A stretch of DNA of 46,491 bases. Origin: a virus. This document shows, piece after piece, positions 10,473 through 26,091 of this stretch. The notes beneath the pieces are model-generated. The model ran no database searches. It saw only the letters and a program-made list of their open reading frames with translations, and was not told the DNA's origin. The stretch spans positions 1 to 46,491 of the IMG/VR virus record IMGVR_UViG_3300005613_004257; one strand, 5' to 3'. The stretch's first letter is position 1. The number at the start of each line of letters is the position of its first letter. The position numbers were made by a program, and so were the translations under genes.

Positions 10473-13400
10473 ATGGCTTTTATTTCGTTAGATGACAGTA
10501 ATGCTCTGGTTGTTCATGATTGTTATGACCAGAAGAAATTGGTTTCCGATATGGGAGGCCAGTGGGACCCGGTTTCCAGAACCTGGAAAGTCGTTTTCAC
10601 GATGTCGAACCTTGAATCCCTTATTGATGGGTTTGATGTTATAGGTGTTGATGATAGCGTTGAAGCGGCTGCTCTGTTGCAGGGAGAGAAAGAGCAGCGT
10701 TTGGAGCGTTTGCGGGAAATGTCTAAAGCGGATGTACCTGTCCGATTAATGATTCCGGGTCTGAAGGTTAGTCTCTATAACTACCAAAAGCTAGGCGTTA
10801 TGTATTCTGTAACTAATGGGGTTGGAGTCTTATTGGCTGATGAGATGGGTCTTGGAAAAGCTTTGGCAGAAGGTACTGAGGTTTATACCCCTTATGGTAG
10901 AAAGAATATAGAGGATATAAGAGTTGGAGATGAGGTGATTGGGAGTGATGGTTGTGCTACAAGGGTGATGGGTTTTTATCCTCAGGGAAGAAGGAAAGCT
11001 TACCGTGTTTCTTTTTCAGATGGTGCTAGTGTGGATTGTTGTAAAGAGCACTTATGGCAGGTTAATACGGCTACTCGTAAGAATCGTGGAAATCCTTCTC
11101 TAGTTAAGACTACGGAGGAGATAATAGAGGACGGGTTGGTTAGAAGAAATGGAAAGAATGGGGAAAGATGGAATTGGTATATACCATTAACCAAACCAGT
11201 TAATTTTGTTACAAGGAGTATTATATTGGATGAGTTACCTCCTTATGTTTTAGGGATTTTGATGGGTGATGGAGCTCTTTCTAATGGTAGGATTGGCTTT
11301 TCTAGTGGGGATAGTGAGATAATTGAAAGAGTTGAATCTTTGATGGGTAAAGATTGGCATGTTAGAAAATGTGGGGGAAAGTATGATTATGAGATTTCAA
11401 GAATAAGTTTCAGAACAGCATGTCAGGATGACCTGGTACATAAGTTTTTGAGAGAAAGAGGTTTGAAGAGAGTAAAATCTCCTGATAAGTGGATTCCAGA
11501 TGAGTATCTTTATTCACCTTTAGATGACCGTTTAGAGCTTTTAAGGGGTCTGTTGGATTCTGATGGTACTGTTTCAAAAGGGGAGAGAGGTAATGCTTGT
11601 GTGTTCTCTACTACTTCTTCTGATTTAAGAGATGCGGTGGTATGGTTGTGTAGGTCCTTGGGTGGAACAGCATCTTGTGGAAGAAAGAGTCCTTTCTATT
11701 ATAAGGATGGGAAGAGGATTTATTGTAGGGAGGCTTGGAATGTAACAGTATCTTTGCCAGGAGGCATGTGTCCTTTTTATTTAAAAAGGAAGGCTTCTGA
11801 GTATTTAAATTGTCGTTTAAAGTACCCGCCATCTAGGGCAATTACATCTATAGAAAGGGTTGGAGAGAAAGAGATGTATTGTATAGCAGTAGATGCTGAA
11901 GATAGTCTTTATGTGACGAAGGATTTTGTTGTGACTCATAATACGATACAGGCTATATCTACTGCTCTAATGTTGAAGTTTAGAGGTCTTGCTAAAAAGG
12001 GTCTTATAGTCACTCCTGCCTCATTGAAATTCAACTGGCCTCTCGAGATAGAAAAGTTCACGGATGAGAAATATGTAATCATAGATGGTAGTCCTGATGA
12101 AAGGGTAGCCCAGTGGCTCAGAGATGATGTCTTTTTCTATGTGGTTAATTCGGAGCTTGTACTGGAGGATTTGTTTGGTGGTAGGGAGTTCAAGGCCAAG
12201 AAGGGAGAGACGCCTCAACAGGCGGCCAGGAGGAAGGCCAGAATAGCCAAAGCCAAGGCCAGGGAGAGGATTCTTGGGCCGGTAAGAAGGAGGATGTGGG
12301 ACTTTATAGCGGTGGATGAGTGTTTCCCATATTATACACCTGTGATTACAGATAGGGGTATTATACCGATAGGTCAGATTGTAGAAAATTGTCTTAATGT
12401 GTCCGTTTTATCTTGTGATTTTTCAACAAATGAGTTATCATACAAGAAGGTAGTTAGGTATATTGACAAGCCTTTGGCTGGATGTCTTGTAGAGATAAAG
12501 CATGAGTTTGGAAGTCTTGTCTGTACGGAGAATCATCGAGTCTGGACGGAGGAGGATGGTTATGTTGAGGCAGGTAAAATCAAGAGGGACGGTGTTACGC
12601 ATTTGCGAGTGGTGCGAGGAGGAGTTTCAGGCACAGAAGAGGGGGAAGTCTACCCCGAGATTTTGCAGTCACAAGTGTTCGAACAGATGGAAACTATCTC
12701 AGCCGTCGGTAATAGAGAAGATAGTAGAGAAGCGAAGAATGCCGGAGAAAAAGAAGAAGTGCAAGGAGTGTCATGGTGTCTTCGTCGTGAGGACTGCAAG
12801 GGAACAGGAGAGAGTTTTTTGTTCAAAGAGGTGCAGTGCGATTTGGAGGACGAAGCACGAGGACGGGTGGGACATCAAGATGCGGAAGATGCACAAGGAA
12901 AGCATGAAGGTTATCAAGGGAGGGAGGAATCCATCGGCTTCTTTGAGAATGAAGATGTTAAATCAAGACCCTGTGTTCAGAAAGAAAGTGATGGACGGTG
13001 CTGCGAAGTGGAGGGAGAGCAATCCGTCATTTATTGCCAGAGGAGGGAAGCCGTTCATAACGGAGCCTCAGAGGATTTTGTATCAGATTTTGGGAGAGGG
13101 GTGGATACTGGAGTATGTGGTTGCCGACAAGTTGAAGATGGCGGAAGTAATAGAGTCTCCCCCGAATTTCTATCAGATAGATATTGCTCATCCGGAATTG
13201 AAGATTGCAGTGGAAGTAGATGGAAAGACTCACAAGACAGCGAAATGGAAAGTAATAGATGGCAGGAAGAACAAGGCTTTGTCTTATCTAGGGTGGTCGG
13301 TGTTGAGATTCTGGAACGAGGAGATTATGCAGGATGCAGAGGGGGTAGCGAAGAAGGTCAGAAAGTGTATAACCTCGAAGTAGAGGATAATCATAACTAT

Positions 13401-14414
13401 GTGGCTGACGGGGTATTAGTTTCAAACTGTCAAATGTTGAAGAGCCATTCCTCAAAAAGGAGTAGGAATGTAAAGCAGTTGAGGGCTAAATTCAAGATGG
13501 CGTTGACAGGAACGCCGATGGACGGCAAGTTAGAGGAGCTTCATAGTGTGATGGGCTTTGTGGCGCCTGGGTTGCTGGGTTCTAAGATGAGGTTTTTCCA
13601 GAAGCATGTTGAGACGGATTTCTATGGCAAGGTGACAGGGTATAAGAGGTTGTCTGAAGTGACGAGTAAAATTCAGCCTTTCTTCATAAGGAGGTTGAAG
13701 AGGGATGTACTGGAGGACTTGCCTGATAAGATTTATGAGAATAAGGTAGTTATCTTGTCAAAACAGGAGGCTGACATATATAAGAAGTTGGCTTCAAATG
13801 GACATGAGGCTACTGAGGATGCTGAGGCTGTGGTGGCTGTTATCAGATGTAAGCAGTTCTGTAATTGGCCGGGGATGATTGATGATGAGTGCCGGAAGTT
13901 CTCGAAGATGGATGCTTTCAAGGAAGTGCTCGATGAGGTTGTGATAGAGAATGGCAACCAGGCTTTGGTGTTCAGTCAGTATAAGGAGATGCTGGATGTA
14001 ATCGCGACTCATATCAAGGGTATGGGGTTGAAGTATTTAAGGATTGATGGTGATACTGACAAGAGGGACAGGGCAGATTATCAGAAGGTGTTCAAGGAGG
14101 ATAAGACTATAGATTTGATGATAGGTACTGAGGCCATGTCTACTGGTCTGAATTTAACTGCTGCGAGTTATGTTATAAACTATGATGATAATTGGGCACC
14201 TGCTGTGATGGCTCAGAGGGAAGATAGGGCTCATAGAATAGGGCAGTTGAAGGGTGTTACTGTTATTAATTTTATATGTAAGAATACGATAGAAGAGAGA
14301 ATAAGGGATGTCATATATGCAAAGTCGAAAGTGACTGCTACTGTGTTGGGTGATGATATTGATGAGATGGTTTTAAAGAGGCTGGGTCCGAAGGACGTAG
14401 CAAAATTGTTATAG
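10473..14414 (+). CDS. SNF2/HARP-like DNA helicase precursor with two inteins
   Basis: 1313-residue precursor, about 583 residues after removal of both inteins. Residues 1-75 resemble the N-terminal part of HARP/SMARCAL1-like helicases. Motif I is ADEMGLGK (ending at residue 129) and continues as TIQAIS after intein 1 (residues 130-490). Motif II is VDE followed by CQ after intein 2 (residues 617-985). Later motifs include TGTPMDGKLEE, a FSQYKEM block, and motif VI QREDRAHRIGQ. The family translocates on double-stranded DNA and remodels forks; here a role in replication or recombination is inferred from the neighbours. The ATG at 10473 has GGAGG upstream. The next gene starts 7 bases after the stop. 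Activity requires protein splicing, since both inserts interrupt ATPase motifs. Confidence 0.9.
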   Translation: MAFISLDDSNALVVHDCYDQKKLVSDMGGQWDPVSRTWKVVFTMSNLESLIDGFDVIGVDDSVEAAALLQGEKEQRLERLREMSKADVPVRLMIPGLKVSLYNYQKLGVMYSVTNGVGVLLADEMGLGKALAEGTEVYTPYGRKNIEDIRVGDEVIGSDGCATRVMGFYPQGRRKAYRVSFSDGASVDCCKEHLWQVNTATRKNRGNPSLVKTTEEIIEDGLVRRNGKNGERWNWYIPLTKPVNFVTRSIILDELPPYVLGILMGDGALSNGRIGFSSGDSEIIERVESLMGKDWHVRKCGGKYDYEISRISFRTACQDDLVHKFLRERGLKRVKSPDKWIPDEYLYSPLDDRLELLRGLLDSDGTVSKGERGNACVFSTTSSDLRDAVVWLCRSLGGTASCGRKSPFYYKDGKRIYCREAWNVTVSLPGGMCPFYLKRKASEYLNCRLKYPPSRAITSIERVGEKEMYCIAVDAEDSLYVTKDFVVTHNTIQAISTALMLKFRGLAKKGLIVTPASLKFNWPLEIEKFTDEKYVIIDGSPDERVAQWLRDDVFFYVVNSELVLEDLFGGREFKAKKGETPQQAARRKARIAKAKARERILGPVRRRMWDFIAVDECFPYYTPVITDRGIIPIGQIVENCLNVSVLSCDFSTNELSYKKVVRYIDKPLAGCLVEIKHEFGSLVCTENHRVWTEEDGYVEAGKIKRDGVTHLRVVRGGVSGTEEGEVYPEILQSQVFEQMETISAVGNREDSREAKNAGEKEEVQGVSWCLRREDCKGTGESFLFKEVQCDLEDEARGRVGHQDAEDAQGKHEGYQGREESIGFFENEDVKSRPCVQKESDGRCCEVEGEQSVIYCQRREAVHNGASEDFVSDFGRGVDTGVCGCRQVEDGGSNRVSPEFLSDRYCSSGIEDCSGSRWKDSQDSEMESNRWQEEQGFVLSRVVGVEILERGDYAGCRGGSEEGQKVYNLEVEDNHNYVADGVLVSNCQMLKSHSSKRSRNVKQLRAKFKMALTGTPMDGKLEELHSVMGFVAPGLLGSKMRFFQKHVETDFYGKVTGYKRLSEVTSKIQPFFIRRLKRDVLEDLPDKIYENKVVILSKQEADIYKKLASNGHEATEDAEAVVAVIRCKQFCNWPGMIDDECRKFSKMDAFKEVLDEVVIENGNQALVFSQYKEMLDVIATHIKGMGLKYLRIDGDTDKRDRADYQKVFKEDKTIDLMIGTEAMSTGLNLTAASYVINYDDNWAPAVMAQREDRAHRIGQLKGVTVINFICKNTIEERIRDVIYAKSKVTATVLGDDIDEMVLKRLGPKDVAKLL
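10860..11942 (+). other. Intein 1: class 3 (W-C-T), LAGLIDADG type, at the Walker A Lys
   Basis: 361 residues inserted between GK and T of motif I. It begins Ala-Leu-Ala-Glu-Gly-Thr instead of Cys or Ser and ends Thr-His-Asn before Thr+1. The three residues that define class 3 inteins are present: Trp in block B (HLWQV, codon 11055-11057), Cys in block F (MYCIAVD, codon 11880-11882) and Thr in block G (VVTHN, codon 11934-11936). Two LAGLIDADG-like motifs, LGILMGDGAL and LLRGLLDSDGTV, mark an in-frame homing endonuclease. Class 3 inteins start splicing through the block F Cys (established knowledge). All key residues are intact, so it is probably active. Confidence 0.9.
12548..12564 (+). promoter_or_regulatory. 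Internal ribosome binding site for the nested endonuclease
   Basis: GGAGGAGG at 12548-12555, six bases before the ATG at 12562. In the intein frame the same bases encode part of the TEEDGY segment just after block B. An ATG at 12556 is also in the endonuclease frame but would sit directly on the SD. Confidence 0.6.
12562..13383 (+). CDS. Vsr/EDxHD-like homing endonuclease nested out of frame in intein 2
   Basis: 273 residues in the +1 frame relative to the helicase. The open frame reaches back to 12502, but the ATG at 12562 has a strong GGAGGAGG (12548-12555) six bases upstream. Two treble-clef-like zinc fingers use C15, C18, C35, C39 and C67, C70, C87, C91. A helical segment with DPVFRKK follows. 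The C-terminal nuclease core has D207, the EVDG..H motif (E218, D220, H224), D233 and LGWSVLRFWNEEI, as in Vsr-like/DUF559 and EDxHD homing enzymes (PD-(D/E)XK-like fold). The stop falls inside block F of the intein. It would cut intein-less alleles and spread the insertion. Translation as a separate protein is inferred from the internal ribosome binding site. Confidence 0.85.
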   Translation: MLRQVKSRGTVLRICEWCEEEFQAQKRGKSTPRFCSHKCSNRWKLSQPSVIEKIVEKRRMPEKKKKCKECHGVFVVRTAREQERVFCSKRCSAIWRTKHEDGWDIKMRKMHKESMKVIKGGRNPSASLRMKMLNQDPVFRKKVMDGAAKWRESNPSFIARGGKPFITEPQRILYQILGEGWILEYVVADKLKMAEVIESPPNFYQIDIAHPELKIAVEVDGKTHKTAKWKVIDGRKNKALSYLGWSVLRFWNEEIMQDAEGVAKKVRKCITSK

Positions 14415-14421
14415 GAGTTTT

Positions 14422-16113
14422 ATGGCCAGTTTTGCGCAAACAAGAGATTTAGAGAGGTCGCTGATAAAGTTGCTGTCGGGTAGTAAGATGATGGCCCGGT
14501 TGCATATGTCTAAGGTTAAGACGGAGTGGTTTACCTCACCGGAGCGGAAGTTTATAGCTGACTGTATGCGTGAGGTAATGAGTTCAAATAATGCTGCTCT
14601 GAGCAAGAATGTATTTGAGTATATGGTTGGTTCTCAGGTTCCTGACTCAGAGAGGTCGTCTTACATCTCGGAATGGAATTTCATAGAGGCTTTGACTACT
14701 AATGAGGATGTTGAAGTCCTTATGGGCAAGATGGAAGAGGCCAGGGTTGGCCAGGAGGCTTTGGGTACTCTTGAGGAGGTGGCTGAGCTCTTGGAGGAGG
14801 GTAGGGTTCCTGAGGCCATATCTGCTCTTAAGATGAAGGCTGTAACCATAGGGGGTACAGTAGAGGATAGGCCATTGGTTGAGATAACCGATTATCAGCG
14901 GAGGTTGCAGCTGATAAAGGATAAGCAGGCTAATCCTGATAAGTATAAGGGTATAAAGATAGGCTTTGAGACATTTGACAATAATGCTGGTGGTGTGTTT
15001 ATAAATGAGCTGCTTCTTATTGCTGGTATAACTGGTCTGGGAAAGTCTACTCTGGTTAAGCAGATATGTACTAATATTATCAGGCTTAATAAAGATATCA
15101 ATGTACTCCATATCGCTAATGAGGAGCATCAGGAACAGGTGGAGTCAAAGTATGATGCCAACTTGTCGGGGATACATTATAGTAATTTTAAGAGGGCGGA
15201 TATCACTGATGAAGAGGTCGAGAAGTGGACTGATGGTATGGACAGGCTTAAGGATAGGTCTAAGAGAGGAGAGTCTGGTCGTATCTTTGTCAAGGAAGTT
15301 GCTGCTTTTACAGATGCTACATTGATAGAGCAGGCTTATAGGGAGCTTGAACAGAGAGGTATTAAAATCCATGTTATAGTTATTGACCACTTGCCTCACT
15401 TGAAGCCTATTCAGCAGGCATGGGGTGAGAATGACGAGAGAGCAAAGGCGGCTTCGGATTGTAAGGAGCTTGCAAGGTCTCTTCATACTGCGGTGATAGT
15501 TCCGACTCAGGCTGCTACGGATGTGGAGGAAAAGCAGAACAAGGGCCGTAGGGCTGGTAAATTGGATGTGTATGGTTCCAAGGGACAGATTCATGTGGCG
15601 AATACCTTCTTGATAATAACCTCGAAGGGTCAGGATATGGGTCAGGAGTTGGGTAAGGATATTGACGAGGATTGGGAAAGGGATGTCTTCTGGTTGTGTG
15701 ATATTAAGAAACAGAGGGATGGTGCTCCTTTCTGGTTCTTTGCTAAGCATTTTGTGAAAAATGGTCGTGTTGTAGAGATTAAGGAAGAGATGATGTCTCA
15801 GCCGAAGGGTAAAGATGTCAATAAGGCTATAACTGAGGCTGTGGGAGATGGCTCTGAAGATGAGGAGAAGCCTGAGGGTGAGAAGCAGGAGATTGATGCC
15901 CAGGTGGCTAGAGAGTGTGATGAGGCTTTGTTAGAGGAGCCTGAGGCGCCGTCTGAGCCTGATAAGAATGATAAGGCTGATAATGTGCCAAGTGAGCCTG
16001 TGAAGGCTTCTGAGGACAATTCTGGGGCTTCTGAGGGTGATTCGAAGATGACTGCCAGAATGGCTAAAATGAAAGCGGCTGCCAGAATTTTGGCAAAGAA
16101 ATCTGCTCAATAA
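14422..16113 (+). CDS. DnaB-like replicative helicase
   Basis: 563 residues. Residues 1-110 form an all-helical N-terminal domain of the DnaB type. The RecA-like core starts near 180, with Walker A GITGLGKST (202-210), a segment ANEEHQEQVESKYD matching the catalytic Glu region, and Walker B HVIVIDH (316-323). Residues 480-563 are an acidic, Pro/Glu/Ser-rich tail ending in a basic helix (MAKMKAAARILAKKSAQ), unusual for DnaB and possibly a partner-binding tail. The family forms hexameric rings that unwind the fork 5'-3'. It sits next to an SNF2-like helicase and upstream of a primase, consistent with a phage primosome. SD AGGAG precedes the ATG. Confidence 0.85.
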   Translation: MASFAQTRDLERSLIKLLSGSKMMARLHMSKVKTEWFTSPERKFIADCMREVMSSNNAALSKNVFEYMVGSQVPDSERSSYISEWNFIEALTTNEDVEVLMGKMEEARVGQEALGTLEEVAELLEEGRVPEAISALKMKAVTIGGTVEDRPLVEITDYQRRLQLIKDKQANPDKYKGIKIGFETFDNNAGGVFINELLLIAGITGLGKSTLVKQICTNIIRLNKDINVLHIANEEHQEQVESKYDANLSGIHYSNFKRADITDEEVEKWTDGMDRLKDRSKRGESGRIFVKEVAAFTDATLIEQAYRELEQRGIKIHVIVIDHLPHLKPIQQAWGENDERAKAASDCKELARSLHTAVIVPTQAATDVEEKQNKGRRAGKLDVYGSKGQIHVANTFLIITSKGQDMGQELGKDIDEDWERDVFWLCDIKKQRDGAPFWFFAKHFVKNGRVVEIKEEMMSQPKGKDVNKAITEAVGDGSEDEEKPEGEKQEIDAQVARECDEALLEEPEAPSEPDKNDKADNVPSEPVKASEDNSGASEGDSKMTARMAKMKAAARILAKKSAQ

Positions 16114-16186
16114 TTGCTTTGGGATGTGTATAGTAGTTGTGAAAGATTATGTAATGTCAATGTTTGACTAAAAACAGGAGGAAATA
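16114..16186 (+). promoter_or_regulatory. 73-bp gap with a weak promoter-like box
   Basis: Contains TATAGTAG at 16129-16136 followed by TTGTGAAAGA, similar to the box at 45804 (ATAGTAGTATGTGAAGA). No T-rich or CCCC box was found at the expected distance upstream, so this is only a candidate. CAGGAGG just before 16187 is the ribosome binding site of the next gene. Confidence 0.25.
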
Positions 16187-17158
16187 ATGAGTGATGGGCA
16201 TGAGTTGATTGGGCAAAGAAAGATTGGTGATGAGTTCTCGGGGACTTATTATGTGGAATCGGTCTATATTAAGAAGACCGTCCAAAAGAAAGACTATTCT
16301 GACTTCGTTCTGAAGGACAAATCTGGCTCCAGAAGCGTAAAGTTTTGGGGTGTGGTAGATGGCGTCAAAAAGGGAGACTTCGTATTTATAGCAGCCAATG
16401 TAGAGGAGTACCACGGTAATCCAAGCATGGTGGCTAAGAATGTTGAGAAGTCAGACCCTCCAGAGGATATGACTCCTTATATGGCAGTCCATGAGGATGC
16501 TGAGGAGAATGCTGGTAAGTATGATTTTCTGCATGACCAGTTGAAAGAGCTGTGTGAGAAGACGGGTGACGATACTCCTCTCTTGATAGTGGATGAGGTG
16601 TATGGAAATAGTGCATTCTTCACTAAGTTTGTAGAGGCACCTGGAAGTTCAAAATCTCACTATGGTGTGGTTGGTGGTCTGATGGCTAATACTGTGAGAC
16701 TTGGAGAGAAGGCTCATGATGATGGTAGAATGTATGGCCTTAGTGAGGCTGAGTTGAGTGTCGCTCTGGCTTCTGCTCTTCTGGCCAGGATAGGTGCTAT
16801 AGATGCTTATGAGTTTGTTGATTGTTCTGCGCAGGAGACTAAGATGGGAGTCTTGCTTGGAATGAACAACTTGACTATGACCAGGGTGTCATCTGCTTTG
16901 AAGAGAGTTGTGGCGAAGTTGAAGAAGGAGAAGAGGAGACCTTCTCAGGATACAGTAGTGAGAATATTGCATGCTGTGTCGGCTTGTCATAATGGTGGTG
17001 TAGCTTCTATGACTCCTGAGGCAATGGTTGTAAATTCAGCTTACAGGCTTGACTCGGAGATGGTCCATGCAATGGACTTTATATCAGAGGACATGAATGC
17101 GGAGGAGTTTACAGCATTTGACCCTATTCTGAGACGCTGTTATTATACTGGTAGCTAG
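16187..17158 (+). CDS. YhaM-like protein: OB fold plus degenerate HD domain
   Basis: 323 residues. Residues 10-90 follow the OB-fold pattern of YhaM/CBF1 exoribonucleases (a D.SG..V.FWGVVD block, then F.AANVEEYHGNPSM). Residues 125-300 align by pattern with the HD domain: APGSSKSHYGVVGGLMANT corresponds to the family's APAA..HH.Y.GGLLEHT, and LARIGA sits where HDIGK is expected. The metal-binding His and Asp are therefore largely lost. The family degrades RNA 3'-5'; this member may only bind nucleic acid or protein. It lies between helicase and primase genes, so a replication accessory role is plausible. Family call is from pattern and domain order. Confidence 0.6.
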   Translation: MSDGHELIGQRKIGDEFSGTYYVESVYIKKTVQKKDYSDFVLKDKSGSRSVKFWGVVDGVKKGDFVFIAANVEEYHGNPSMVAKNVEKSDPPEDMTPYMAVHEDAEENAGKYDFLHDQLKELCEKTGDDTPLLIVDEVYGNSAFFTKFVEAPGSSKSHYGVVGGLMANTVRLGEKAHDDGRMYGLSEAELSVALASALLARIGAIDAYEFVDCSAQETKMGVLLGMNNLTMTRVSSALKRVVAKLKKEKRRPSQDTVVRILHAVSACHNGGVASMTPEAMVVNSAYRLDSEMVHAMDFISEDMNAEEFTAFDPILRRCYYTGS

Positions 17159-17167
17159 GAGGGTTTG

Positions 17168-18238
17168 ATGTCCAGACATAGCGTCAAGGACAGGATAAAG
17201 TACAAGGACATATCTTGGCTTATGCCGAGTGTGGATGTGGTGGCTTCTCTGGAGAAACTTGGAGTACAAGGTATATCCAGGACGGGTGATGAGATTACAG
17301 CTTATTGCCCGGACCACCATATATTCACCGGTAATGAGCCTTCTCATCCAAAATGGACTCTTAATGTAAAGAATGGTAAGACGTTCTGTTTTACCGAGGG
17401 AAGGGGTAGTAATCTTTTATGGATTATATCCAGAGTCTTAGATGTATCTGCTGATGAGGCGATGAAATTCTTATGCGGTGAGAATGGGGATATAGATGTC
17501 AGTAAGCTGAGACTTGATGCTATGAAGAGGGCAAAGGAACGTCTTCTTGATAATGATGAAGAGGATGATACTCCGAGGGTGTCTGGTTTATCTTCAGTGA
17601 GGAGGGAGATGGAAAGAGGATGTATGAGTCCTGAGGCTTATGAATTCTTTATGAGTCCTCCTGGCAAAAAGCATCCTACCAATATATGTAAGGATACTGT
17701 AGACCATTATCAGGTGTTCGAAAGAACATGGGGTTATTATGTTGACACGGTGGTTATACCTTTCGTGCAGAAGGGTGTCCTTATGGGATTTTCCGCGACC
17801 GATATTCTTGGCAAGGAGGAGTGGCTATTCAGACATCCTACTAAGTCTGAGAATGAGTATAAGAAGACCAGGTTTCCATCTGGATTTAAGACGAGAGAGT
17901 TCTTATTCGGATATGATGACTGCCAGGAGGGTGCTGACTTTCTAATTGTAACTGAGGGGCCTCGGGAAGTCATGAAGTTGTGGCAGGAAGGTTTTACTAA
18001 TTCAGTGGCTGTATTGGGTTCGTTTATGGGTGATACCCAGATGGAGTTGTTGTCAAGTTTGGCTCCGAAGAAAGTGGTCTTAATGTTTGATGGTGATAGT
18101 GCGGGTGATAGGGCTGCTGAGGGAGTGGGCAAGAAATTGGAGAATCTTGTGGAGGTAGTTGTTTGCAGGCCTCCTGAGGGAATGGACCCTAAAAATCTTG
18201 AAAGGAGAGACTTTGAGAAGATGATTTTTGGAAAATAG
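17168..18238 (+). CDS. DNA primase (Toprim, CHC2-like zinc finger variant)
   Basis: 356 residues from the ATG at 17168 (AGGAGGG at 17157-17163); a TTG three bases earlier is less likely. N-terminal CPDH (C47, H50) and FCFTEG (C74) match a CHC2 zinc finger, but the fourth ligand, normally Cys, is Glu or missing. Residues 180-245 are a DnaG-like core (VIPFVQKGVLMGFSATDI). The Toprim domain has E263 (VTEGPREVM) and MFDGDSAGDRA (DGD at 308-310), the metal-binding signature. It makes RNA primers for lagging-strand synthesis and probably works with the DnaB-like helicase two genes upstream. Confidence 0.85.
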   Translation: MSRHSVKDRIKYKDISWLMPSVDVVASLEKLGVQGISRTGDEITAYCPDHHIFTGNEPSHPKWTLNVKNGKTFCFTEGRGSNLLWIISRVLDVSADEAMKFLCGENGDIDVSKLRLDAMKRAKERLLDNDEEDDTPRVSGLSSVRREMERGCMSPEAYEFFMSPPGKKHPTNICKDTVDHYQVFERTWGYYVDTVVIPFVQKGVLMGFSATDILGKEEWLFRHPTKSENEYKKTRFPSGFKTREFLFGYDDCQEGADFLIVTEGPREVMKLWQEGFTNSVAVLGSFMGDTQMELLSSLAPKKVVLMFDGDSAGDRAAEGVGKKLENLVEVVVCRPPEGMDPKNLERRDFEKMIFGK

Positions 18239-24954: not shown

Positions 24955-26091
24955 ATGAGTACCAAGAAAGCGAAAGATAAGCGTGCGGATAGGATAAGTG
25001 GTATATGTGCTGCAATCAACAAGACAGATTTTGGTGGTGAGAATCACGATGCTGTTACTTGGGTAGGCTCACAGGATTCTGTGGTAATGGAGAGGTTTCC
25101 TTCGGGTTGTGTAGACTTGGATGAAGCTCTTGGAGGAGGATGGCCTAAGGGTAGGTTTGTGGAGTTGTATGGCCCTGAATCGGGAGGTAAGACGACACTG
25201 GCTCTTCATGCTATAGCTGAGCATCAGAAGAAGTATCCTGATGAGGATATAGCGCTTATTGATTCTGAGTTTGCCTGGGATGCTGAGTATGCTACGGAGA
25301 TAGGAGTAGATACGAAGTACTTGATTGTTCACCAACCTGAAAACGGTGTTCAGGCATTGAATGTGCTGGAGCAGTTAATTAAGGGAGGCGTATCCCTTAT
25401 AGTTGTTGATTCGGTGGCTGCACTGACTACAGCTGATGAGTTGGCAGGTGATATTGGTGATATTACTGTTGGTGCTCAGGCCAGGTTGATGAGTGGAGCA
25501 CTCAGGAGGCTTACTGGTGAAGCTGGAAGGCGTAAAGTAACTGTCTTCTGGACAAATCAGCTTCGTGAGAAGATTGGTATAACATGGGGCGATAAAACCA
25601 CTACTCCGGCAGGACGTGCATTAAAGCATTATGCTTCTGTGAGGGTGTCAATAAAGAGTTGGGGTAAGATTAAGGAAGGTGACGCTATTGTGTCTTCTAA
25701 GACTAAAGCCGATGTTAAGAAGAATAAAACTGCGCCTCCTTTCAGGGTTGCTGAGTTTAATATTACGTTCGGTATAGGTATAGATGTAGTAGCTTCGGTA
25801 TTGGATAGTGCAATAGCCATGGGTGTCGTGGAAAAGAGAGGTTCGTGGCTTAGTTTCCAGAGTGAGCAGCTTGGACAGGGAAGAGCTGTAGTGCTGGATA
25901 ATATGAGAAATGATGAGGAGTTGGTAGCCAAGGTATCGGCAGCGATTGATGATGCCAAGAATGAAGGTGTTAAACCAAAACCTCAGAAGAAGGCTGATAT
26001 CAAGAGGCCTAAGGCTTCTGCTGGTAAGAATGATTCTGCCGAAGATGCTGATGCCATAGATACGCCGGAAGTGGGGGTTGAGGATGCCTGA
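24955..26091 (+). CDS. recA: RecA recombinase
   Basis: 378 residues. Walker A GPESGGKTT (73-81), Walker B SLIVVDS (147-153), the L1/L2 region QARLMSGALRRLTGEAGR and FWTNQLREKIG, all as in bacterial RecA. The C-terminus from ~335 is Lys/Pro/Asp-rich and less conserved. It forms filaments on single-stranded DNA and carries out strand exchange; in phage it supports recombination-dependent replication and repair. TAGGAGG precedes the ATG. It follows ssb, separated by a terminator, and overlaps the reading of the next gene's upstream start codons. Confidence 0.95.
   Translation: MSTKKAKDKRADRISGICAAINKTDFGGENHDAVTWVGSQDSVVMERFPSGCVDLDEALGGGWPKGRFVELYGPESGGKTTLALHAIAEHQKKYPDEDIALIDSEFAWDAEYATEIGVDTKYLIVHQPENGVQALNVLEQLIKGGVSLIVVDSVAALTTADELAGDIGDITVGAQARLMSGALRRLTGEAGRRKVTVFWTNQLREKIGITWGDKTTTPAGRALKHYASVRVSIKSWGKIKEGDAIVSSKTKADVKKNKTAPPFRVAEFNITFGIGIDVVASVLDSAIAMGVVEKRGSWLSFQSEQLGQGRAVVLDNMRNDEELVAKVSAAIDDAKNEGVKPKPQKKADIKRPKASAGKNDSAEDADAIDTPEVGVEDA

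Follow-up and report, generated by a model that had tools for sequence, protein, structure and literature searches.

Textbook inteins carry the endonuclease as an in-frame domain, with both activities in one polypeptide. A helicase gene in the window, by which we mean the whole stretch of 46,491 nucleotides from an IMG/VR virus record, raises the question of whether a continuous intein can house an endonuclease that is encoded as a separate gene one base out of phase. We consider it very likely (probability about 0.9) that the locus holds a mobile motif-II intein with a separate, +1-nested homing endonuclease; splicing, expression and cleavage are inferred.

The helicase gene, its two inteins and the nested frame

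The helicase ORF contains no stop codon and matches the Pfam models SNF2-rel_dom (8.6e-29) and Helicase_C (1.7e-22) as well as PHROG 62, DNA helicase (6.6e-97). The features of the locus are collected in Table 1. Elsewhere in the window (24955-26091 and 14422-18238) an ordinary phage replication block was observed, with a UvsX-like recombinase, a DnaB-like helicase and a primase; tRNA genes were sought in the window and none was found.

Table 1. Features of the helicase locus in window coordinates (slashes within motifs mark intein junctions)
Feature	Position	Strand	Basis or remark
SNF2-like helicase gene with two inteins	10473..14414	+	single unbroken frame, 1313 codons
Intein 1, at GLGK/T of motif I (Walker A), orthodox in-frame LAGLIDADG endonuclease	10860..11942	+	
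Intein 2, class-1-like, 369 aa, at DE/CQ of helicase motif II	12321..13427	+	C1, TxxH, terminal N, +1 Cys; NCBIfam end models; AlphaFold Hint fold; Foldseek
N-terminal splicing half of intein 2, host residues 1-100	12321..12620	+	pLDDT about 88-96; pN/pS 0.32 in relatives
Shine-Dalgarno GGAGGAGG of the nested endonuclease gene, in the intein block B region	12548..12555	+	6 bases from ATG 12562
Nested homing endonuclease ORF, 273 aa, stop included	12562..13383	+	+1 relative to helicase/intein frame
Zinc finger 1 of endonuclease (C15, C18, C35, C39)	12604..12678	+	sequence; Pfam zf-FCS matches
Overlap middle, disordered linker in intein frame (host residues 103-316)	12627..13268	+	pLDDT mostly <50; stop-free
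Zinc finger 2 of endonuclease (C67, C70, C87, C91)	12760..12834	+	invariant in 38-sequence alignment
Endonuclease catalytic core D207..E218xD220G..H224..D233..K236, EDxHD/Vsr-like	13180..13269	+	invariant columns; I-Bth0305I fold match
Doubly functional stretch	13278..13313	+	endonuclease LGWSVLRFWN motif; +1: intein beta-strand FVLSRVVGVEIL, host residues 320-331
C-terminal splicing half of intein 2, blocks F and G (...VYNLEVEDNHNYVADGVLVSN)	13344..13427	+	

Intein 1, whose endonuclease is recognised by Pfam (LAGLIDADG_3, 1.1e-07; Hom_end, 1.9e-04), probably resembles a class 3 intein with an in-frame LAGLIDADG enzyme. Since it looks like class 3, the gene appears to combine two inteins differing in class and in frame design. 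The first residue of intein 1 is Ala, not Cys; its block B contains CCKEHLW, its block F has a Cys (YCIAV), and the intein ends in THN/T.

The catalytic residues of intein 2 were assessed in a 35-sequence alignment. The nucleophile C1 at 12321 is invariant, as are both residues of the block B TxxH motif (T69-x-x-H72), and the intein ends in N369, found in at least 90% of the aligned sequences, followed by a +1 Cys at 13428. The class 1 criterion of a penultimate His is not met in the window, which reads SN/C where many relatives read HN/C; inteins without a penultimate His exist as exceptions. Both NCBIfam end models pass their curated cut-offs (intein_Cterm, E 5.6e-08; intein_Nterm, E 2e-05). 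In the AlphaFold model the splicing halves adopt a Hint fold at a pLDDT of about 88-96 around a disordered middle, and the best PDB matches of this model in Foldseek are mini-inteins (E 1.8e-06). We regard intein 2 with high confidence as class-1-like, its splicing activity being an inference that rests on the conservation of its catalytic residues, on its fold and on the selection acting on it.

The endonuclease frame, offset by +1, is open from 12499, has its ATG at 12562 and stops at 13381-13383. The ORF lies wholly within intein 2, one base out of phase, and its stop codon falls within the C-terminal splicing half. A preliminary description, made from the sequence alone, had placed the intein at 12321-13427, with both splicing halves in the helicase frame, and a 273-residue ORF in +1 from ATG 12562. 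The coordinates held when ORF and translation were checked, and the continuous intein is supported by the open frame, the NCBIfam matches and the motifs. The two zinc fingers that it described and the DUF559/Vsr/EDxHD family in which it proposed to search held as well: Pfam recognises DUF559 (E 4.7e-13), both fingers are of the Cys4 type, with zf-FCS matches in 5 of 38 family members, and D207, E218-x-D220-G221, H224 and D233 are invariant in the 38-sequence alignment. The enzyme is predicted with a mean pLDDT of 90.5, and its C-terminal domain matches 3hrl (Z 12.9), the catalytic domain of I-Bth0305I (3r3p; Z 11.2, 2.5 A over 90 residues) and Vsr (1cw0; Z 10.3). In all likelihood the nested enzyme is a homing endonuclease combining zinc fingers with a DUF559/EDxHD (I-Bth0305I/Vsr-like) domain; cleavage is inferred.

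We also assessed how the endonuclease might be translated. Its start in the window forms an anti-SD duplex of -12.1 kcal/mol. Across the family the best endonuclease start has a median of -6.4 kcal/mol, versus -3.2, -3.3 and -3.8 in three controls, and the internal Shine-Dalgarno sequence is enriched against each of them (p 1e-12 to 8e-8). Since it is conserved and enriched, internal initiation is the likely route, although this is inferred from sequence and no expression data exist. By a criterion of -6 kcal/mol, no strong Shine-Dalgarno sequence is present in about 43% of relatives, and other start mechanisms are possible there. The internal ribosome site of the preliminary description is thus present in the window and conserved in the family, while the separate enzyme it was taken to suggest is inferred.

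Recurrence in relatives, stop avoidance and selection

A tblastn search with the endonuclease against 50,697 phage records returned 40 matching records from Vibrio, Corynebacterium and Pseudomonas phages, many of the matches underlying annotated helicase genes. In all eight phage loci that we opened the match lies +1 to the helicase gene and is unannotated, so databases are likely blind to this class. When viral contigs were scanned with the window endonuclease as a single sequence there were no matches; alignment-based scans gave 416 and 387 viral relatives, and 302 were found in bacterial and archaeal genome assemblies. From each viral scan 80 relatives (160 in all), and 80 of the 302 genome-assembly relatives, were analysed together with the eight phage loci, for 249 loci including the window. 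The search patterns describe the endonuclease only and carry no intein-frame information.

The endonuclease is nested in +1 within an open host frame at 207 of the 249 loci, two of them judged to be chance: the window itself, 8/8 phage records, 156/160 viral contigs and 42/80 genome assemblies, the last including the two chance cases. These two (L213 and L225) were first counted as nested; they are chromosomal proteins without intein motifs. Among the 249 loci none showed nesting in the other phase and none an endonuclease in frame with the intein. Short, free-standing DUF559 genes on chromosomes make up most of the other genome loci and served as controls; among the non-nested relatives, L066, L164 and L201 are free-standing endonucleases. 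With some 150 distinct loci in phages and bacteria showing it, the out-of-frame endonuclease within an intein is a stable packing of two genes, and a sequencing slip can be set aside.

For a stop to arise in the host frame in this phase, the third base of an endonuclease codon must be a T followed by AA, AG or GA. In 159 non-redundant nested relatives a wobble T never occurs before these dinucleotides (0/7671), whereas in other contexts of the same genes it makes up 31.7% of 21118 wobble bases. In the free-standing controls the two values are 21.9% and 30.6%. From the wobble-T usage of the gene family, scaled to the window gene, 25.4 intein-frame stops are expected in the window and none is observed (P about 1e-16); the third frame contains 25 stops, and the median expectation per locus is 13.7. 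The absence of wobble T is partly definitional for the nested class, yet 165 of the 169 window, phage and viral loci belong to it. An open frame arising by chance is ruled out by these wobble statistics, and a codon bias against T can be rejected as the cause given the 31.7% in other contexts.

Every NNT codon can be exchanged for its synonym NNC, so that no stop in the intein frame is unavoidable in this phase and any endonuclease sequence can stay stop-free. Under the other phase a Met before Lys, Asn, Ile, Met or Thr makes a TGA obligatory, and 148 of 158 proteins would contain such an unavoidable stop. We infer that a single phase is seen because the other one would force stops.

The preliminary description had proposed that both frames be tested for purifying selection. 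In 21 independent pairs of relatives pN/pS is 0.32 in the endonuclease frame, and reading this DNA in the intein frame gives 1.28 over the whole aligned overlap; the splicing halves give 0.32 and 0.23 and the extein 0.30. The endonuclease frame and the splicing halves of the intein are thus under purifying selection, and the pattern indicates that the middle of the overlap is held open while its intein-frame residues drift.

Host residues 81-100 and 320-331, encoded at the two ends of the overlap, are part of the folded Hint domain, with a block-mean pLDDT of about 88-95. The LGWSVLRFWN motif of the endonuclease is read in +1 as RVVGVEIL, a Hint beta-strand, and the intein model reaches a pLDDT of about 95 at residues 320-331. 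Wobble divergence at conserved endonuclease residues decreases from this stretch (13278..13313) onward: it is 0.355 for the middle and 0.119 for the last ~30 codons (27/30 pairs), compared with 0.432 and 0.343 (7/16) in the free-standing controls. The last ~30 endonuclease codons are therefore constrained in both frames through the same bases. The intein-frame linker as a conserved protein can be rejected for the middle (pN/pS 1.28, pLDDT <50) and is retained for the ends.

Dual coding, as claimed in the preliminary description, is accordingly borne out by wobble-T usage, pN/pS and the double constraint at the 3' end. Its Gly/Glu/Ser/Arg-rich linker of about 255 residues held only in part: disorder extends over about residues 103-316, and the ends belong to the folded Hint domain. 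Two results go beyond it, namely a large family tied to the motif II/Walker B site and overlap ends constrained in both frames.

Insertion site, alleles and coexisting states

Of 153 inteins with mapped ends, 131 are inserted exactly at DE followed by C, S or T, and the rest mostly nearby; the DNA at the site reads GAyGAr/TGyCA. Among the hosts, 139 are SF2 helicases or large proteins related to them and 14 are DnaX clamp loaders, and the endonucleases from DnaX hosts form one clade.

Near-identical phage helicases differ in the occupation of this site. The exteins of Vibrio phage K391, with an overprinted intein, and 234P10, which is empty, are 98.9% identical, and those of CP-T1 (occupied) and VchM-138 (empty) 98.6%. 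K459 carries a mini-intein of 150 residues in an extein 95.2% identical to that of K391. The inteins of 1.088.O and K391 share 94.4% DNA identity between flanks of 78%, which argues for recent transfer and thus for mobility; cleavage is inferred. As side observations, the intein-free VchM-138 helicase (L256:1129-3051) reads DEAHH, where the CP-T1 extein after splicing would read DECHH, possibly reflecting co-conversion or a resistant allele, and the helicase of Vibrio phage 13VV501A (L251:1652-4153) holds two mini-inteins, in the P-loop (GAGK/T) and at DE/CHH.

Two relatives (L133 and L191) are split genes with a similar site and the same endonuclease phase, showing 15 and 23 stops in the analysed region. 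In a third (L037:3839-4660) the linker is interrupted only once, by a stop where it begins, and is open beyond that point; this may be a newly split intein or an assembly error. At L201:3923-4534 a free-standing family endonuclease lies directly upstream of an intein-less helicase reading DESHH. The helicases of Dickeya JA11, Yersinia fHe-Yen9-02 and Salmonella S16 also appear split, and what lies between their halves is either a different endonuclease or none that is recognised; in the split intein of Yersinia phage fHe-Yen9-02 (L254:2755-3813) we observed an opposite-strand gene of another type with repeated Cys motifs.

Mini-intein, overprinted, split and free-standing states thus coexist, and tree branches are often weak and give no rooted order as to whether overprinting or splitting came first. 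We lean towards, without holding it firmly, a bolder reading in which the whole motif-II intein lineage has permanently moved its endonuclease into an overlapping +1 gene, stabilised in phase by synonymous stop removal, and belongs with mini-inteins, split inteins and free-standing endonucleases to a single evolutionary series, perhaps as a route from cis to split.

Alternative explanations and known systems

Our main reading would work as follows. The intein family would home into DNA for motif II/Walker B (DE/C) of helicases and clamp loaders. The long frame would give a helicase-intein-helicase precursor from which the Hint domain splices in cis, an inference drawn from catalytic residues, fold and selection, and ribosomes starting at the internal Shine-Dalgarno/ATG, a step inferred from the conserved site, would make the zinc-finger EDxHD endonuclease separately. 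This enzyme would cut intein-free alleles at motif II, and repair would copy the whole intein in; the evidence here is the insertion site and the allele patterns only. The overlap would persist because every intein-frame stop, being NNT followed by AA, AG or GA, can always be replaced via NNC, its middle serving as a spacer in the intein frame and both ends serving both proteins. Against cis splicing it may be objected that some 215 disordered residues between the halves could make it slow, and against the reading as a whole that the residue before the terminal Asn is Ser in the window and not the common His.

Two compensating sequencing or assembly indels, one at either edge of an ordinary in-frame endonuclease, would yield such a pattern in a single metagenomic contig, and the preliminary description had named an indel as what would refute it. 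This refutation failed, and the explanation is practically excluded: the same phase is found in 8/8 annotated phage loci, from the 40 matching records, and in about 150 non-redundant loci, the intein frame is kept stop-free through selection on wobble bases, and no relative has an in-frame version. Also at odds with the data would be an endonuclease ORF that is a decaying or unexpressed passenger in an otherwise functional intein. Expression data are indeed absent; nevertheless, the endonuclease frame is under purifying selection (0.32), catalytic and zinc residues are invariant and horizontal transfer has been recent, all of which makes this very unlikely.

An intein that is split in practice, the long frame not being read through and splicing occurring in trans as in 'fractured' genes, finds some support in the true split relatives with a same-phase endonuclease and in the one with a single stop at the linker start. 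However, the window and about 150 relatives keep the frame open at a cost in wobble choice that would be needless if translation stopped inside, and we give this possibility very little weight. Programmed ribosomal frameshifting from the intein frame, in place of internal initiation, is somewhat harder to dismiss but still unlikely. Overlap between the frames at the 5' edge speaks for it, as does the lack of a strong Shine-Dalgarno sequence in some relatives; on the other hand, a strong ribosome site enriched in the family lies just 5' of the in-frame ATG in the window, and the product of a single shift would lack the C-terminal splicing half. A continuous intein with a separately translated endonuclease remains the preferred reading.

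Encoding two proteins in one stretch of DNA would uncouple endonuclease dose and timing from splicing. The family is also a large natural case of overprinting with measurable constraint, showing stop avoidance alone in mid-overlap and double constraint at the 3' end. Homing, splicing and internal translation can be tested in cultivated phages, among which near-identical helicases occur with the intein, with a mini-intein or with neither.

In a review, intein endonucleases are described as fusions with the surrounding intein (PMC3943268). An intein with an out-of-frame endonuclease was not found in the full-text literature searched, which did not cover the fractured-gene paper of Dassa et al. 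2009, where cases might be mentioned. The preliminary description mentions reports of out-of-frame endonucleases in phage inteins, but the precedent found has no detectable intein. It comprises the ShiLan domain, an out-of-frame HNH endonuclease in a phage methylase (PMC11855218, 2025), and the Pacc40 gp60 insertion, a hidden out-of-frame HNH endonuclease in a phage methylase from the same paper. Both share with the window family a mobile out-of-frame endonuclease, an open host frame and a disjunct distribution (PMC11855218). They differ in that no splicing element was detected, the insert is thought to be retained in the protein, the nuclease is HNH and no detectable ribosome site was reported, whereas in the window family an intein surrounds the endonuclease, which is EDxHD/Vsr-like and preceded by a conserved Shine-Dalgarno sequence.

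Dassa et al. 2009 reportedly described 'fractured genes' with split inteins and Vsr-like homing endonucleases. These reportedly have a Vsr-like endonuclease ORF between the intein halves, mostly in phage DNA-metabolism genes, and L133 and L191 look like this type and are relatives of the window family. In a fractured gene the host gene is in two pieces and splicing is in trans; the window fails the criterion of two ORFs, its single frame being open throughout. Orthodox bifunctional inteins such as intein 1 likewise have a cis-splicing Hint domain that carries a homing endonuclease where one is canonically inserted, but there the LAGLIDADG endonuclease is an in-frame domain and in intein 2 a separate gene in another frame. 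I-Bth0305I shares the catalytic fold (VIA Z 11.2) and a multi-domain DNA-binding N-terminus; it is encoded in a group I intron, and the DNA-binding part of the window enzyme has two zinc fingers. The mini-inteins of Vibrio phages K459 and 13VV501A occupy the same DE/CHH position in near-identical helicases, but comprise only 143-150 aa and have neither endonuclease nor nested gene. Taken together, the parts are known and the arrangement, conserved across a large family, is likely new.
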